Positions 27,699 through 35,121 of a DNA stretch of 64,000 nucleotides are shown here, one piece after another. The notes beneath the pieces were generated by a model. That model did no database searches. It had not been told where the DNA came from and saw only the letters and a list, made by a program, of their open reading frames with translations. Position 1 is the stretch's first letter; every line of letters begins with the position of its first letter. A program made the translations under genes and the position numbers. The DNA lies in the NCBI RefSeq assembly GCF_000258515.1, contig NZ_AJLF01000002.1:62001-126000 (forward strand). Direction: 5' to 3'. Source of the stretch: Thermococcus zilligii AN1. GTDB lineage: Archaea; Methanobacteriota_B; Thermococci; Thermococcales; Thermococcaceae.

Positions 27699-28199
27699 AT
27701 GAGCACCTCGGCCAGAGAAGTAACCCGGAGAATACCGCTGGCGATGGTCGTGATAAGACCGGCGAAGATCTTTGACATCCCTGAAATAATGAGGATAGAG
27801 CGGGAATCCTTTAGCGAAGCCTACCCCAGGGGGCTTTTTCTCGTCTTCCTCGAGAACAACCCGGATACGTTCCTAGTTGCGGAATACAACGGGAAGGTCA
27901 TAGGTTACGTAATGGCCTACCTAAGGCCCGACCTCGAGGGCCACATAATGAGCATAGCCGTTGACCCAGCCTACAGGGGCAACGGTATAGGGTCCGCGCT
28001 TCTCACTGAGGCCATAGAGAGGCTAATACAGAAGGGGGCGCGGTACATTGGCCTCGAGGTAAGGGTCAGCAACGAAAAGGCGATCGGACTTTACGAGCGC
28101 TTCGGCTTCAGGAAAGTGAAGAGGGTAATAGGTTACTACTCCGATGGCGAGGACGCTTATTACATGGTCCTTCCTGCGGAGGAATGGAGGGGGAGCTGA
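27699..28199 (+). CDS. rimI: Ribosomal-protein-alanine/protein N-terminal acetyltransferase (RimI/Ard1)
   Basis: GNAT-fold acetyltransferase that modifies protein N-termini. The 166-residue chain has the acetyl-CoA motif [15 protein letters not shown] (about residues 88-102), the preceding SIAV beta strand, and the C-terminal [10 protein letters not shown]. The first 24 residues are not part of the GNAT fold, but the ATG at 27699 has a GGTGAGG element before it; a shorter start at the MVVIRP methionine is possible. The stop overlaps the endA ATG by one base. Confidence 0.88.
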
Positions 28200-28705
28200 T
28201 GATAGTCTTTTACCTCAGCGGGAACAGGGTCTTCTCAACAGATAAGAACGCAATAGACGGCCTCCACAACAACCGCCGCTATGGAAAACTCGTCAACGGA
28301 AAGGTGTTTCTCTCACTCCTCGAGGCGGCCTATCTGATTGAGAGGGGCAAGATAGAGGTAAGGGACGGGAAAAAGACGCTGACCCTCGAGGAGGTCATGA
28401 AGCTTGGAAGGGAAGAGGACGAGCTGTTCGATGCCAAGTACCTGGTTTATAAGGACTTGAGGGACAGGGGCTACACGGTAAAGTCGGGTTTAAAGTTCGG
28501 CTCCCATTTCAGGGTCTATCGCGGGGGAACGGAGGAGCACTCCCGGTGGCTCGTCTGGGTTGTTCCCGAGAACAAGACGATAGCTCCCAACGACATAACC
28601 GCCCGGGGTAGGGTAGCCCACGGCGTCAGGAAGGAGATGATAATGGCGGTCGTTGACGATGACGGTGACGTTACGTACTATAAGGTCGAGTGGGTGAAGT
28701 TTTAG
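28199..28705 (+). CDS. endA: tRNA-splicing endonuclease EndA
   Basis: Cuts pre-tRNA introns and pre-rRNA at bulge-helix-bulge motifs. The 168-residue protein is the short homomeric type. The C-terminal catalytic domain has the family pattern: tyrosine in KYLVYKDLRDRGY, histidine in FGSHFRVYRGG and lysine in VAHGVRKEM. The ATG at 28199 overlaps the rimI stop by one base with a GGAGGGGGAG element before it; the longer frame start was rejected. The rRNA operon in this window carries two perfect substrates for this enzyme. Confidence 0.94.
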   Translation: MIVFYLSGNRVFSTDKNAIDGLHNNRRYGKLVNGKVFLSLLEAAYLIERGKIEVRDGKKTLTLEEVMKLGREEDELFDAKYLVYKDLRDRGYTVKSGLKFGSHFRVYRGGTEEHSRWLVWVVPENKTIAPNDITARGRVAHGVRKEMIMAVVDDDGDVTYYKVEWVKF

Positions 28706-28968
28706 TAACCGCGGCTTTTTTGAGCCCTTTAAAGGACAGCGTCGTTAGCGGGCGGCTCCCCGTGAGGGATAAGGGGGCACAAACATACCGGCCAAGGTCA
28801 AATCCCTTAGTAGCGGTGCGGAGGAGCAATCCCGCTCGATATTGCCCGCATGCTGATCATGTTTAAATAACAAAGGATCCGACGGCCTCTTTTCCTATCT
28901 TTTCAATCCCTCCCCCCGTGAGGCAGGAGTTTAATCCAGTCCCTTGGGTAATGCCCCCCTTTGCGATT
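28706..28968. other. Intergenic region after endA
   Basis: Spacer of 263 bases between the convergent endA and island genes. It has a GC-rich part (28740-28860) with possible hairpins such as GGCTCCCCGTGAGGGATAAGG, followed by AT-rich sequence with GTTTAAATAAC at 28861-28871. No tRNA, open frame with a start signal or recognised RNA family is seen. The word TAGCGGTGCGG at 28811-28821 recurs at 30726-30736 on the other side of the AT-rich island. Confidence 0.4.
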
Positions 28969-29454
28969 TCAAAGCGGAATTGGAATGATTATCCAAAACG
29001 CTAATGTCGCTAAGACAGGTGTAGTAACGTATGCAACTAATTTTCTTTTCTTTGTCTCCAAATTTTTGGAATAGCCCCTGATTAGACCCATGACGAGAAG
29101 GATAAACCCCAGAAGCAACGACAGTTGCTCTAAAAGAGTTCTAAGTTCTATCTCTGAAGGAAAACTCAATCGAAGCACTGCACTGCTGAACCCTGCAATA
29201 GCCAGAGGAGCTGAACAGAATGCATAAAGTTTAAGGGAGGGTGTTCTCTTCAGGATCAGAGTTAGAACTCCAAGTAGGGTTAGGGATTGCAAAATAAACC
29301 TAAGCCCATTCACGAGCAGGGGTAACCATAAACGGGACAGTGGTGCATTGAAAACCCTAAGCATATAATAAAAGCCGACTAACTGGTAGGAATATACAAC
29401 CTCCCCAAGCACCCAAAGAGTCACTGTCCATTTAACCGCTTCTTCCAGTTTCAT
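28969..29454 (-). CDS. Island protein C: multi-pass membrane protein, unknown
   Basis: Unrecognised 161-residue protein with about five hydrophobic helices (roughly residues 7-26, 40-63, 73-91, 102-121 and 136-156) and short basic loops such as KRTPSLK and KNLETKKRK. The ATG at 29454 was chosen because GGGGG precedes it at good spacing. It overlaps the end of the preceding gene by 23 bases in another frame, so both are probably read from one message. G+C is visibly lower than in flanking genes: 23 of 60 bases in 29041-29100. It could serve immunity, export or membrane anchoring for the secreted island protein; this is inference. Confidence 0.65.
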   Translation of the reverse strand: MKLEEAVKWTVTLWVLGEVVYSYQLVGFYYMLRVFNAPLSRLWLPLLVNGLRFILQSLTLLGVLTLILKRTPSLKLYAFCSAPLAIAGFSSAVLRLSFPSEIELRTLLEQLSLLLGFILLVMGLIRGYSKNLETKKRKLVAYVTTPVLATLAFWIIIPIPL

Positions 29455-29770
29455 CTTTAGACCCCCTGAGGATTCCCCAGATTGCAAGTCCCAAGAGTAC
29501 TATGAGAAGCCAGACGGGCCTACTTCCCGCTACTATTGTGAGCAAATCCCCCCTGTAGTCCAACCACCACTGTAGATATTCTTTGAAGAGTCCATAACCA
29601 AGTATTGATCCGATCGGCATCCCAGCCAAGAAAAAAACACTCGTCGGTCTCTGGGAGTAGTATTTCATTCTGGGCTTGGTTATCCAGTTCAACACTAAAA
29701 CAATAACGGCAAACCACGGGTGGAGTGTTGATAGGAGTCCTTCAAGGAATGAGATCATCTCCTTCCTCAC
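29432..29770 (-). CDS. Island protein B: small membrane protein, unknown
   Basis: Unrecognised protein of about 112 residues with three hydrophobic stretches: around WFAVIVLVLNWI, VFFLAGMPIGSILGYGLF and VWLLIVLLGLAIWGIL. The basic KPRMKYYSQRP loop follows the first. GTG at 29770 lies four bases after a strong GGAGGTGAT; ATG at 29758 and GTG at 29779 are alternatives. It lies 66 bases after the secreted island protein on the same strand. G+C is 26 of 60 in 29641-29700. The charged, tryptophan-rich end and small size are compatible with an immunity or holin-like role, but nothing proves it. Confidence 0.62.
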   Translation of the reverse strand: MRKEMISFLEGLLSTLHPWFAVIVLVLNWITKPRMKYYSQRPTSVFFLAGMPIGSILGYGLFKEYLQWWLDYRGDLLTIVAGSRPVWLLIVLLGLAIWGILRGSKDETGRSG

Positions 29771-29836
29771 AGCTATCACCTCCTTTGTGACACCTACATT
29801 GCAATTACAAAAACAAAAAATTTAGGAGCACAATGA

Positions 29837-30511
29837 TTATGTTTCAGTAAATAAAGCCACGTCTATACTAACGCCGGTCAGTAGGGCGCCTATAACACTT
29901 GCTAGCCCTTCTGCACTACCTTCTACTATAAATTGTAGTAGCTTTTTACCTGCCTCACTTGCAACTTTACCGACCCCAATAGCCGCTAAAAAGTTCGCGA
30001 GCCAAGGCCAACTGTTGTAACCAATGACCAGCATCCCATGGGTACCGTACCCAGCATCGAACTTGACTTCTTGCTCCCACCAACCTCCAAAACTAAACCA
30101 ACTGCTGTATTCAGCAGTTAATACCTTAAATCTATATCCTGCAACTTCGTGAGTACTGATAGAATTCAGCTTGAAACGCTCTCCATAGAAGTTGTACGTT
30201 GTCATATCTGGCATTATAACCGCAGTGAAATAGCCTCCCAGAGGCACCCACTTGAATACTGAAACGCTAATGCTTCCTCTTCCATTGTGTTTAACTTGGT
30301 ATGTCTTAACATATGGTGACACCCCGGGAACCCAAGCACGCCCTTCACTTATGACAGCGTCGCCCTTAAGCCACGTGAACACAACTGTTCCAAGGCCTAT
30401 GTTGTGCTCTGGGGCTGGTTGGGTGGGTATGGGTGCCGCCACAGCGCTCCCAGCTGTTATATCAACCATCAACAGTCCGAGTAGGACTGCAAACAGTGGC
30501 TTCCACCTCAC
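29837..30511 (-). CDS. Island protein A: secreted protein with amphipathic C-terminus
   Basis: Unrecognised 224-residue protein. The N-terminus is a classical signal peptide: VRWK, then a hydrophobic core FAVLLGLLMVDI and a probable cleavage after GSAVAA. The mature part begins with a proline-rich segment (PIPTQPAP), has an aromatic beta-rich middle (YNFYGERF, SWFSFGGWWEQE), then from about residue 165 a glycine/alanine-rich amphipathic region (IGVGKVASEAGKKLLQFI, AEGLASVIGALLTGV) that could insert into membranes. GTG at 30511 follows GGGGGTGAAC; GTG at 30520 and 30526 are alternatives. A TATA box lies at 30559-30570. A secreted pore-former or surface protein is inferred. Confidence 0.68.
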   Translation of the reverse strand: MRWKPLFAVLLGLLMVDITAGSAVAAPIPTQPAPEHNIGLGTVVFTWLKGDAVISEGRAWVPGVSPYVKTYQVKHNGRGSISVSVFKWVPLGGYFTAVIMPDMTTYNFYGERFKLNSISTHEVAGYRFKVLTAEYSSWFSFGGWWEQEVKFDAGYGTHGMLVIGYNSWPWLANFLAAIGVGKVASEAGKKLLQFIVEGSAEGLASVIGALLTGVSIDVALFTET

Positions 30512-30558
30512 GAGGTTCACCCCCACAATGATTGTGCAATACTAACTATGCATCCTTT

Positions 30559-30570
30559 CCTTATAAATTT
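30559..30570 (-). promoter_or_regulatory. TATA box for the AT-rich island genes
   Basis: AAATTTATAAGG on the minus strand within a poly-A/T context. It is about 50 bases before the secreted-protein start and the only clear promoter for the three minus-strand island genes. Confidence 0.65.
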
Positions 30571-30935
30571 TTCCTTTTACTTTAAGTACATGTTGTTTCT
30601 TTTTTCTTTTGAGGAAAATTTATTCCAAGTAATGTTTTCCTCTTAGAATCGGTCAAAAGAAGCCTGAGTAAAGAAGTTGCATGACTATGCAACAGAACTA
30701 TGCCGATCCCGATCAAAATCATCAATAGCGGTGCGGGAAGGCTTCGCTCCGGAGAGTTTTCTCAACGACGTCGCCGCGATAACGGCTAAGAGGGCCCTGG
30801 GAGCACTTCTGGAGAGGCACCCGGCTGAGAAGCTTGTACGTGTCAAACCCCCAAGACTGAAGAATGCCGGACAGGCACCCCTGCCTGTTTGGGGTCAGGA
30901 GATAACCCCGAGGGCAAACAAAAGAGGGAAAGGGC
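30571..30935. other. Intergenic region with a possible gene remnant
   Basis: From 30571 to about 30660 the DNA is very AT-rich. From about 30677 to 30935 base composition returns to that of the chromosome, and a plus-strand frame stays open, including FLNDVAAITAKRALGALLER and then HPAEKLVRVKPP, which look like real protein codons. There is no ribosome-binding site, and the frame runs antisense into the kbl gene. It may be the relic of a gene end. No RNA was recognised. Confidence 0.35.
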
Positions 30936-32123
30936 TCACTTCAGGAACCCGGTCTTCTTTCCGAGGTCCTCGAAGGCATCAATTACATACCGCAGGTCTT
31001 CTTTTGTGTGGGCCGCCGAAGGCTCGAGCCTTATCCTCGCTGTCCCGAGCGGGACGGTCGGGTAGACTATCGCCTGGGCAAAGATGTTGTACTCCTCGTA
31101 GAGCCTCCTTGAGAACTCCTGGGCGCGCTTCTCGTCGTAGAGCATAACGGGAGTAATCGGGTGCTTGGTGTTGCCGAGGTTGTAGCCGAGCTCCCTCAGC
31201 CCGTTCTGGAGGAAGTGGGTGTTGTCCCAGAGCCTCTTAACGAGCTCGTCGCTCCTCTGGAGAATCTCAACTGCCGCTATGGCCGCGGCAACGTCGGGCG
31301 GGTTCGGAGCGCTCGAGAAGAGGAAAGGCCTTGCCCTCTGGCGTAGGTAGTCAATGGCCTCTTCAGGCCCAGCAACGTAGCCACCAATGACGCCGAAGGC
31401 CTTACTCAGAGTTCCCATCTCGAAGTCAACCTTGTCGTGGAGCTTGAAGTGGTCGACTATACCCCTCCCGCTGTCACCTAAGACCCCTTCACCGTGGGCG
31501 TCGTCAATGTAAAGAATCGCATCGTACTGCTCGGCCAGCTCCGCCATCTCCGGGAGCCTGGCGAGGTCGCCGTCCATCGAGAAGACACCGTCGCTGACGA
31601 TGATTTTCTTCTTCCTGTCCTTGTTCTCCTTGAGTCTCGCCTCAAGGTCCTCCATGTCGAGGTGCTTGTAGATGACCTTCGGCGCGCCGCTTAGGCGCAT
31701 TCCGTCGATGATGCTCGCGTGGTTCAGTTCTTCGCTTATGAAGACGCCGTCTTCTTCCTTCCTGAGGAGGGCGCTTATGGCCCCAAGGTTGGCGTTGTAG
31801 CCGCTCTGGAAGAGTATGGCGGCCTCCCTCTTCTTGAACTTGGCGAGCTTCTCCTCGAGCTCAACGTGGAGGTCCATGGTTCCTGCTATTGTTCTTACCG
31901 CTCCTGCGCCGACGCCGTAGTCGAGGATGGCCCTTATGGCCGCGTATCTAATCTCCGGGGCAGCTGCTAAGCCGAGGTAGTTGTTGGAGCACATGTTGAG
32001 AACCTTCTTGCCATCAACAACCACCCACGGGCCCTGGGCGCTTTCGAGCTTCCTTATGGTCACGTAGAGCCCCTTATCCTTAAGCTCCCGGAGCTCTTCC
32101 CTAATCCAGTCGAGCTTCCCCAT
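30936..32123 (-). CDS. kbl: 2-amino-3-ketobutyrate CoA ligase / glycine C-acetyltransferase
   Basis: PLP-dependent alpha-oxoamine synthase. The likely reaction is cleavage of 2-amino-3-ketobutyrate with CoA to glycine and acetyl-CoA, the second step of threonine breakdown after threonine dehydrogenase. The 395-residue protein has NNYLGLA near the N-terminus, [24 protein letters not shown] with the PLP-contacting Asp-His, and [13 protein letters not shown] with the PLP lysine. The ATG at 32123 follows CCGGTGGTTCTC, and the TATA box (32153-32163) lies inside the longer frame. Other oxoamine synthases (serine palmitoyltransferase, biotin BioF) share these motifs and cannot be wholly excluded. 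Confidence 0.88.
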
Positions 32124-32163: not shown

Positions 32164-32316
32164 TTTGCACTGTCCTCTTCGGTGCAGCCTGAAAAGGCTA
32201 TCAAACCCAGCGGAGAGCGCGCTCTTTGCAGAGGGCGTCGGTATCTGTTTGGGGTTCCGGGCCGTGGCAAAGGCTAAATACCTGAACCCCCATAGCCTTA
32301 AGGGAGGGTGGCAGTT

Positions 32317-35121
32317 ATGTCGGAGGAAGTCAAGGAAGTTAAAATCCTCGAAAAGCCCTGGGTTGAGAAGTACCGCCCCGAGAGACTCGAGGATATAGTC
32401 GGTCAGGCTCACATCGTTAAAAGGCTCAAGCACTACGCCAAAACCGGTTCGATGCCGCACCTGCTCTTTGCCGGGCCGCCCGGCGTGGGGAAAACGAGTG
32501 CAGCCCTGGCCCTTGCGAGGGAGCTCTTCGGCGAAAACTGGCGCCACAACTTCCTGGAGCTTAATGCGAGCGATGAGCGCGGCATAAACGTCATCCGCGA
32601 GAAGGTGAAGGAATTTGCGAGGACGAAGCCGATAGGAGGGGCGAGCTTCAAGATAATCTTCCTTGATGAAGCCGATGCATTAACGCAAGACGCCCAGCAG
32701 GCCCTGAGAAGGACAATGGAGATGTTCTCGAACAACGTAAGATTTATCCTCAGCTGCGTCACGGGGGACACTAAGATATACACGCCCGACGAGAGGGAAG
32801 TCAGGATAAGGGAATTCATGAGCCACTTCGAGAACGGGCTGGTTAAGGAGGTCAGCAACAGGCTCGGCAGGGACACCGTAATCGCGGCGGTCTCCTTCAA
32901 CTCAAAGATAGTCGGCCACCCGGTTTACAGGCTGACCCTCGAGAGCGGGAGGATAATAGAGGCAACCGGCGACCACATGTTCCTCACTCCGGAGGGCTGG
33001 AGGCAGACCTACGACATCAAAGAGGGCTCCGAAGTCCTCGTGAGGCCGACCCTTGAGGGAACCCCCTACGAACCCGACCCAAGGCCGATAATAAACCTCC
33101 GGGAGTTCTACAGCTTCCTCGAAGAGATCGAGAAGGAGCACGGCCTCAAACCCCTCGGTGAGGCAAGAACCTTCAGGGAGCTCGTAACAAGGGACAAGGA
33201 GAAAATCCTGAGGAGGGCCCTTGAGCTTAAAGCCGAGATGGAGAACGGTCTCACCAGGAGGGAAGCTGGGATACTGTCACTCCTCGAAGGGGGCTGGACA
33301 CCGAGGACAGAGCTGCAGGAGAAAGCCGGGATTTCACGTGTCAGGCTCAACCAGATCCTCCGGAACCTTGAGAGGAAGGGCTACATCGAGAGGAAGGTCG
33401 AAGGCAAAAAACAGCTCGTCAGGAAGCTCCGCGACGGGAGGGCGGTCAGGAACGCGATGGATGTCAGGCGCATCCTCGAGGAGGAATTCGGGATAAAGAT
33501 AAGCTACAGGACGGTTAAGAAGCTTCTCTCCGGCCAGGTTGACGGAATCGCCTACGGGATTCTCAGGGAAGTCAGGGAGAAGTGGCTGGTGAGGTATGAC
33601 GACGAGAAGGCTGGAATCCTCGCGAGGGTTCTCGGCTTCGCCCTCGGCGATGGGCACCTCGCCAAAACCGGGGTCAGGGTCCGGTTCAACTCAACCAGGG
33701 AAGAGCTTGAGATGCTCGCAGAAGACCTCAGAAGGCTCGGCCTGAAGCCATCGGAGATAATAGAGCGCGAGTCAAGCTCAGAAACCCACGGAAGGAGGGT
33801 CGAGGGAAGGATTCACATGCTCTACGTTGACAGCGTTGCCTTCCACGCACTGCTCCGCTTCTGGGGGGTCGAGGCCGGCAACAGGACGAAAAAAGGCTAT
33901 GCCGTTCCGGAGTGGATTAAGGAGGGCAACCTCTTCGTTAAGAGGGAGTTCCTGCGCGGTCTCTTCGGTGCCGACGGAACGAAACCGAAGGGAGAGCGCT
34001 ACAGCTTCAACGGTATAAAGCTCGAGATGCGCGCTAAGAGGGAGAGCCTTGAGAGAACCACGGAGTTCTTCAACGACCTCGCCGAACTGCTCAGGGAATT
34101 CGACGTGGATTCCAGAGTAATCGTGTCGCCCGCTGGAGATGGATTCGCGGTTCGCCTGCTCGTCACACCAAAGGATGCCAACTACCTCAACTTCCTTACG
34201 AGGGTCGGCTACGCCTATGCCAAAGATGCCTGCGCGAGGCTCGTTGGGGAGTACATCAGGATAAAGCTCGCCTGCAGGGAGATGATTCTTCCCGAGATAG
34301 CTGAAAAAGCCGTAGAGCTCGCAACAGCCACGAACCCGACCCATGCCGCAAAGGTTCTTGGCGTTAAGAGGGACTTCGTTGTGAACCGGCTCAAGGGCGT
34401 TCCAATCGGCATAACGAGGGACTTCATAACTTTCGAGGAGTTCGTGAGAGAGAGAACCCTAAACGGCTACGTCGTGGAGCGGGTTGTAAAGAAAGAAGAA
34501 CTCGGCTACCTCGACGTATATGACGTCACCTGCGCGAAAGACCACAGCTTCATCTCGAACGGCCTCATCAGCCATAACTGCAACTACTCATCAAAGATCA
34601 TCGAGCCGATACAGAGCAGGTGCGCCATCTTCCGCTTCAGACCGCTGAACGACGACGCCATAGCGGAGCGCATTAAATACATAGCCGAAAACGAAGGCCT
34701 TGAGCTGACCGAGGAGGGGCTTCAGGCGATACTCTACGTCGCAGAAGGCGACCTGAGGAGGGCCATAAACGTCCTCCAAGCTGCCGCCGCCCTCGACACG
34801 AAGATAACCGACGAGAACGTCTTCCTCGTTGCAAGCAGGGCCAGGCCAGAGGATATACGTGAGATGATGGAGCTCGCCTTAGAAGGCAACTTCCTCAAGG
34901 CGAGGGACAAGCTGAGGGAGATCCTCCTGAAGCAGGGCCTCAGCGGGGAGGATGTCCTCATCCAGATGCACAGGGAGGTGTTCAACCTGCCGATCCCGGA
35001 GGACAAAAAGGTCGCCCTGGCCGATAAAATAGGCGAGTACAACTTCAGACTCGTCGAAGGGGCCAACGAGATGATACAGCTCGAGGCCCTGCTCGCTCAG
35101 TTCACCATAATGGGCAAGTGA
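32317..35121 (+). CDS. rfcS: Replication factor C small subunit with intein
   Basis: Clamp-loader small subunit that opens PCNA on primed DNA. The 934-residue precursor is an extein of 326 residues split by a 608-residue intein. The N-extein (146 residues) has [12 protein letters not shown], Walker [10 protein letters not shown] and Walker [11 protein letters not shown]; it ends RFILS. The C-extein begins [15 protein letters not shown], the SRC arginine-finger region. GGGAGGGTGGCAGTT precedes the ATG at 32317; the GTG at 32308 was rejected. TATA-like GGCTAAATACC lies at 32270-32280. The stop overlaps the rfcL start. Confidence 0.96.
32755..34578 (+). mobile_element. RFC intein with LAGLIDADG homing endonuclease
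   Basis: Self-splicing protein element of 608 residues inserted before the cysteine of CNYSSK. It starts [11 protein letters not shown] (block A), has [14 protein letters not shown] (block B), and ends with block [16 protein letters not shown] followed by extein Cys, so all splicing residues (Cys1, block B His, terminal His-Asn, Cys+1) are present. The endonuclease motifs are [10 protein letters not shown] and LRGLFGADG, each with an acidic residue. Between the splicing half and the endonuclease lies an extra region of about 110 residues resembling one or two helix-turn-helix units. It looks functional for splicing and homing. Confidence 0.95.

Follow-up and report, generated by a model that had tools for sequence, protein, structure and literature searches.

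The VARTIG modules, among the closest described systems, are built around a large Ig protein, mostly of more than 500 aa, with the C-terminal motif D[ND]NxxxG[GD]; the variable part of this protein is its C-terminal Ig domain (Makarova et al. 2021, PMC8416519). Polymorphic toxin systems combine a constant N-terminal trafficking part with a variable C-terminal part and with adjacent and orphan partner genes (Zhang et al. 2012, PMC3482391), and hyperthermophiles have been reported as tending to lack them (PMC3482391). Archaeocins, such as the halocins and sulfolobicins, are secreted or membrane-associated archaeal proteins active against relatives (review PMC4609331), and in T6SS loci of Vibrio the displacement of effectors has left orphan immunity genes behind in arrays (Kirchberger et al. 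2017, PMC5361080). The locus described here, a three-gene island of Thermococcus zilligii AN1, shares features with each of them and, judged from sequence comparison, is on balance probably one cassette of a polymorphic toxin (effector)/immunity system specific to Thermococcales.

The island is located in the window, that is, the whole stretch of 64,000 nucleotides that was analyzed, between the convergent genes endA (28184-28705, plus strand) and kbl (30936-32123, minus strand), in an interval (28706-30935) that the comparison of gaps across genomes identifies as a cassette-occupied hot spot. The pair brackets three minus-strand ORFs in the order P1 (secreted), P2, and P3 (membrane proteins), downstream of a single TATA promoter. 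P1 and P2 are separated by 66 bp, and the ends of P2 and P3 have 23 bp in common, in agreement with the original prediction of three minus-strand genes under one TATA box, with tight spacing and overlap of the two membrane protein genes. The island is also AT-rich, as predicted, with GC contents of 47.6% in P1, 46.9% in P2, and 42.6% in P3, compared to 54.0% in endA, 57.9% in kbl, and 55.7% in the window. When 1.8-kb stretches were sampled across the 64 kb, the one starting at 28901 had the lowest GC (44.5%), and the dip is therefore not due to chance sampling. A T-rich run in the P1-P2 gap (29808-29823, minus strand) may act as a partial terminator, in which case co-transcription of P1, P2, and P3 would possibly be unequal. 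Another feature of the window is a gene for the Replication factor C small subunit (32308-35121), split by an intein that contains a LAGLIDADG-like domain.

P1 (29837-30511, minus strand) is a secreted effector-like protein of 224 aa belonging to family CL0, of which 21 relatives were aligned. Its GTG start at 30511 aligns with those of the relatives, with GTG at 30526 as the alternative. In the AlphaFold model (mean pLDDT 78), a disordered linker is followed by ten beta strands, three helices, and a last strand; the model comprises a beta-rich domain at residues 44-165 (30017-30382, minus strand) and a Gly/Ala-rich helical segment at residues 168-210 (29882-30010, minus strand), which is the most hydrophobic portion in the P1 relatives and a candidate membrane-active part. 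The sequence and the model thus both show the predicted features, namely a signal peptide, a middle part rich in aromatic residues and beta structure, and a helical C-terminus rich in Gly and Ala. The earlier view that no family is recognized also held, as the searches of P1-P3 against Pfam, NCBIfam, PADLOC, and PHROGs returned nothing above cut-off, naming neither P1 nor P2 and placing P3 only below the threshold of the Yip1 domain family; this assignment was rejected for P3, given a score of 22.2 bits against the Pfam gathering cut-off of 28.6 and a match in one of 20 P3 relatives. Comparison with the PDB by sequence, with the PDB by fold (P1 and P3), and with viral folds gave no convincing relative. 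Foldseek found P1 to resemble cohesin-like and adhesin domains weakly (best E 2.5e-3, with low TM-scores), and no toxin domain or fold was recognized for P1 in the four family libraries or the fold search. No family model in the four libraries supported membership in a known archaeocin family, and the proposed halocin likeness found no support in the same result; the resemblance to archaeocins lies in a secreted archaeal protein acting on relatives, an activity known for archaeocins and proposed for P1.

An initial scan of the genome contigs with P1 found no relatives, and no CL0 member occurred in the 21 genomes that were searched from elsewhere in the phylum. Within Thermococcales, the family has 21 members in the fetched loci and, by profile, approximately 28 full-length copies in 22 of 94 genomes. 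Two P1 relatives (L061:3269-3973 in G002 and L198:1946-2572 in G070) bear a different signal peptide and are nearly alike across two genera, which suggests leader exchange or recent transfer.

The search of the 94 Thermococcales genomes with P1 revealed, in addition to the full-length relatives, more than 100 matches limited to the first ~30 residues, in frames of about 26 to 505 aa. These residues correspond to a shared leader of 25 codons encoding the signal peptide (30437-30511, minus strand), whose profile (consensus xKWKPLFAVLLGLLMVGVTAGSAxA) gave about 221 matches, summed by hand from the match column, in 70 of the 94 genomes. When 84,980 prokaryote species were scanned with a pattern, a method that may miss or omit records, 16 loci were confirmed, all in Thermococcus or Thermococcaceae, and no near-copies of the leader were found outside Thermococcales. 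The true leader start is probably the ATG, GTG, or TTG directly 5′ of (K/R)WK, since the upstream ‘EVN’ residues represent the ribosome-binding site read in frame. The ribosome-binding site region of P1, GGGGGTGAAC (30515-30524, minus strand), is conserved in leader loci as GGAGGTGAAC. Further upstream lies the BRE/TATA promoter element GGAAAAATTTATAAGG (30559-30574, minus strand), conserved at a matching distance in other leader loci, and upstream of the BRE the palindrome TACTTAAAGTA (30578-30588, minus strand), a possible regulator site, for which a Phr-like operator was considered. This palindrome or its variants precede the BRE in many leader promoters, and the upstream palindrome, BRE/TATA, and a TTGCA motif are common to many leader loci, in neither case to all.

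According to BLAST of the fetched loci, the one leader is found on 23 mature clusters, comprising ~20 unrelated mature proteins; a few clusters are very short ORFs or remnants. No toxin family scored above cut-off in 85 leader proteins, and Pfam matched no Ig family in them. One leader protein (L076:3130-4362, G059) contains a C39-like peptidase domain (E 4.6e-9) and is followed by two small polytopic proteins, and the C-terminal domain of a CL7 leader protein (L081:12365-13384, G016) resembles the model of Lsa23, a bacterial surface protein, in a match that stays below the curated cut-off (E 2e-15); hence not every leader protein need be a toxin. Genome G021 carries two effectors with the same type of one-base leader deletion and an otherwise open frame (L026:6249-6323 and L079:3052-3126), possibly reflecting phase variation, recent inactivation, or sequencing error. 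In the part of the literature that was searched, no earlier mention of the leader was found, and the leader proteins apparently form a large, previously undescribed set.

As in VARTIG, the system is restricted to Thermococcales, a secreted variable protein heads a putative operon and is followed by small membrane proteins, the islands are patchy and recently acquired, and the organization is polymorphic-toxin-like. In contrast to VARTIG, the leader proteins are smaller, lack the tail motif, and carry a near-constant leader while the whole mature part varies. VARTIG membership was rejected, as the D[ND]NxxxG[GD] motif occurs in no leader protein and in none of the 3694 ORFs of the fetched loci, and a large multi-Ig protein was likewise ruled out by the size of P1 and of the fetched leader proteins (all below 510 aa) and by the lack of a Pfam Ig match. 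With polymorphic toxin systems (PMC3482391), the locus shares a constant N-terminal trafficking part, variable C-terminal domains, and adjacent and orphan partner genes. However, the constant part here is just a 25-residue leader peptide with an RNA hairpin, the partners sit in the membrane or are anchored, unlike most immunity proteins known from those systems, which are cytoplasmic, and no known toxin domain was recognizable in the 85 leader proteins or in the fold search with P1.

The hairpin, GCAGUCC-N5-GGACUGU, occupies leader codons 8-14 (30472-30490, minus strand) with a stem of 7 bp, and its pairing across 88 leaders, together with an RNAalifold prediction that coincides exactly with it, identifies it as a conserved mRNA element. 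In the leader DNA alignment, it appears as GCAGTCC-N5-GGACTGC within the codons. All seven pairs are kept in 81 of the 88 leaders (68 of these as Watson-Crick), while mature-part synonymous codon usage would yield a mean of 4.5 all-paired leaders and a maximum of 12 in 2000 draws, a contrast that, like the other hairpin statistics, is weakened by shared ancestry and some within-genome homogenization. In the 88-row alignment, 97.4% of cells are paired, a share that falls to 55% or less in controls shifted by 1-3 columns, and with one leader taken per cluster the hairpin is retained in 19.9 of 23 on average. A scan for the hairpin pattern with up to one mismatch gave ~128 matches in total, in 51 of the 94 genomes, versus ~10 in the reversed control. 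The evidence is comparative, since the window leader mRNA folded alone has unremarkable stability (z −0.69); an Rfam search of the region returned nothing. The role of the hairpin is probably a common translational or mRNA control. Alternatively, the inverted repeat could be a DNA site of recombination or homogenization that shuffles effector genes, rather than an RNA element. The 5′ cassettes of different families are slightly more alike within than between genomes (identities of 0.48 vs. 0.44 upstream and 0.739 vs. 0.717 in the leader), and codon bias extends to other leader codons, both in keeping with this alternative; we nevertheless find it doubtful, as most departures inside the stem still allow G-U pairing (A8 only GCG, V9 mostly GTT, G12 mostly GGG, L13 mostly TTG), a property relevant to RNA but not to double-stranded DNA, and neither an integrase nor att repeats are present at the window locus. 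The DNA alternative concerns the hairpin only, is compatible with the toxin/immunity reading, and was graded on a scale separate from that of the explanations weighed below.

P2 (29432-29770, minus strand; 112 aa) and P3 (28969-29454, minus strand; 161 aa) are polytopic membrane proteins and candidate immunity proteins. Relatives of P2 are found behind CL0 effectors and also alone, and those of P3 behind nearly all CL0 effectors, in some loci within a larger protein with 7-9 predicted TM segments. P3 starts at ATG 29454, with TTG 29487 as a start that would extend it, and its model is an all-helical bundle (pLDDT 87). The identities of P1 and P3 correlate (r = 0.83), which co-inheritance alone could also produce. 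Close behind most leader genes lies a small partner, either a membrane protein or one anchored to the membrane. The type of partner, based on transmembrane counts from simple hydropathy and heuristic gene calls, tracks the mature family. That the partners change from one mature family to another beside a constant leader speaks against the export helpers that had been proposed. All five effector families that contain a hydrophobic Gly/Ala stretch have polytopic partners (5/0 vs. 3/8, one-sided Fisher about 0.013, counted by hand), and single-TM partners with large outside domains were found only with non-hydrophobic effectors, of which three families also have polytopic partners; in CL1 and CL9, an adjacent partner is mostly absent. 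Pore-forming colicins likewise have a hydrophobic helical toxin part and small polytopic membrane immunity proteins, about the size of P2 and P3. This is a likeness of working and not of membership, as there is no sequence or fold match, and the archaeal locus differs in its Sec leader and its two linked membrane partners.

Comparison of the loci indicates that partner genes are often kept after effector loss. A broken effector beside an intact partner was found in 11 loci (L026, L028, L051, L058, L069, L083, L087, L144, L173, L174, and L206), several of them in draft genomes, in which an apparent frameshift could be a sequencing error, and no intact effector with a lost or broken partner was seen among CL0 and CL2-CL6. 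For example, in L144, at endA-kbl of G021, only a truncated leader is left and the partner is 98% identical to that of G064, while the CL4 effector of L173 (G008) is gutted and the CL3 effector of L087 (G080) has a deletion and a stop, with intact adjoining partners of 103 and 182 aa, respectively. Furthermore, partners of the CL2 and CL4 types lie behind CL0 operons although the effectors that belong to them are missing there, and L157 and L180 have a P2-P3 pair similar to that of the window but no P1. The Vibrio T6SS arrays (PMC5361080) similarly keep immunity-like genes of other types behind the current effector; the cassette differs in having a Sec-type leader and no T6SS.

At endA-kbl, the gap is empty (25-35 bp) in 10 genomes, and in 14 genomes the gap, or its assembled part, is occupied by cassettes with the leader, or by what remains of them, from five mature families: CL0 (G000, G022, G012, and G081), CL5 (G051, G064, G047, G006, and G092, with a remnant in G021), CL4 (G067 and G008), CL16 (G060), and an unclustered 505-aa protein (G056); in G060, G051, and G081, endA and kbl are on separate contigs. 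At sites such as this one, cassettes thus alternate that have the leader in common and differ in the mature domain and the partner matching it. The empty gaps, the differing cassettes elsewhere, and the restriction of full-length P1 relatives to 22/94 genomes support the predicted acquisition and do not fit the ubiquitous conservation in Thermococcales that would have spoken against it. Only short, chance-like repeats were found in the window when flanking repeats or att sites were sought, and neither plasmids nor IMG/VR matched the cassette, so nothing points to carriage by a plasmid or virus. The gap of many genomes (L131, L132, L133, and others) also holds a membrane protein of ~280 aa, with a DUF835 domain in L131 and similar sequence otherwise. 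A GmrSD-type restriction enzyme is encoded in the gap of G020 (L127:144-1895) and G069 (L136:177-1931), and the hot spot therefore also houses a defence gene.

The toxin/immunity reading is based on the leader shared by 23 clusters, the close partners, the retained and orphan partners, and the five families at one site, and it is weakened by the lack of a known toxin domain, the partnerless CL1 and CL9, and the C39-like and Lsa23-like mature parts. The proposal of a secreted antimicrobial protein with immunity genes accordingly gained comparative support from orphan partners, loci with dead effectors and intact partners, and the many mature domains on one leader, but its export-helper and halocin components were not supported. 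In such a system, P1 would be expressed from the shared promoter-leader unit, exported by Sec, and, from the form of its signal peptide, cleaved after AVA. It would act on other cells, most likely related Thermococcales, its beta-sandwich domain presenting the Gly/Ala-rich helical segment to the target membrane and probably damaging it, while P2 and P3 in the producer membrane would neutralize it.

The leader proteins could instead be variable surface proteins involved in adhesion, self/non-self recognition, or virus evasion, anchored or displayed by their partners. The beta-rich mature parts, the weak likeness of P1 to cohesin-like and adhesin domains, the Lsa23-like adhesin domain that ends CL7, and the hypervariable surface modules with membrane partners known in Thermococcales (VARTIG, PMC8416519) are consistent with this explanation. 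We consider it unlikely, because a display partner should vanish with its client, yet partners are intact in the 11 effector-lost loci and pile up as orphans behind unrelated effectors, and an anchoring tail motif of the VARTIG kind is in no leader protein. It is more improbable still that P1-P3 are a secreted enzyme or binding protein of an ordinary kind and its membrane helpers, which happen to occupy an insertion site that is neutral and AT-rich; although P1 has no known activity and convergent gene gaps are permissive, as the unrelated DUF835 and GmrSD-type genes in this gap illustrate, such a reading leaves the leader shared by unrelated proteins, the partner retention, and the orphan partners unexplained. 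Extending the toxin/immunity reading, we tentatively propose, at rather less than even probability, that a constant promoter-UTR-hairpin-leader unit is combined with swapped, unrelated effector/immunity pairs under common post-transcriptional control by the hairpin, forming an unrecognized arsenal of the Thermococcales.

Little is known about conflict between Thermococcales cells. If the toxin/immunity reading is true, it would contrast with the reported scarcity of polymorphic toxin systems in hyperthermophiles (PMC3482391) and would provide dozens of heat-stable candidate effectors, together with the immunity genes that match them, from an order for which laboratory genetics is available. 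The common leader would serve as a handle for finding more effectors, and its hairpin would represent an unusual mRNA structure, conserved in the part that codes for the signal peptide in genes that are otherwise unrelated.
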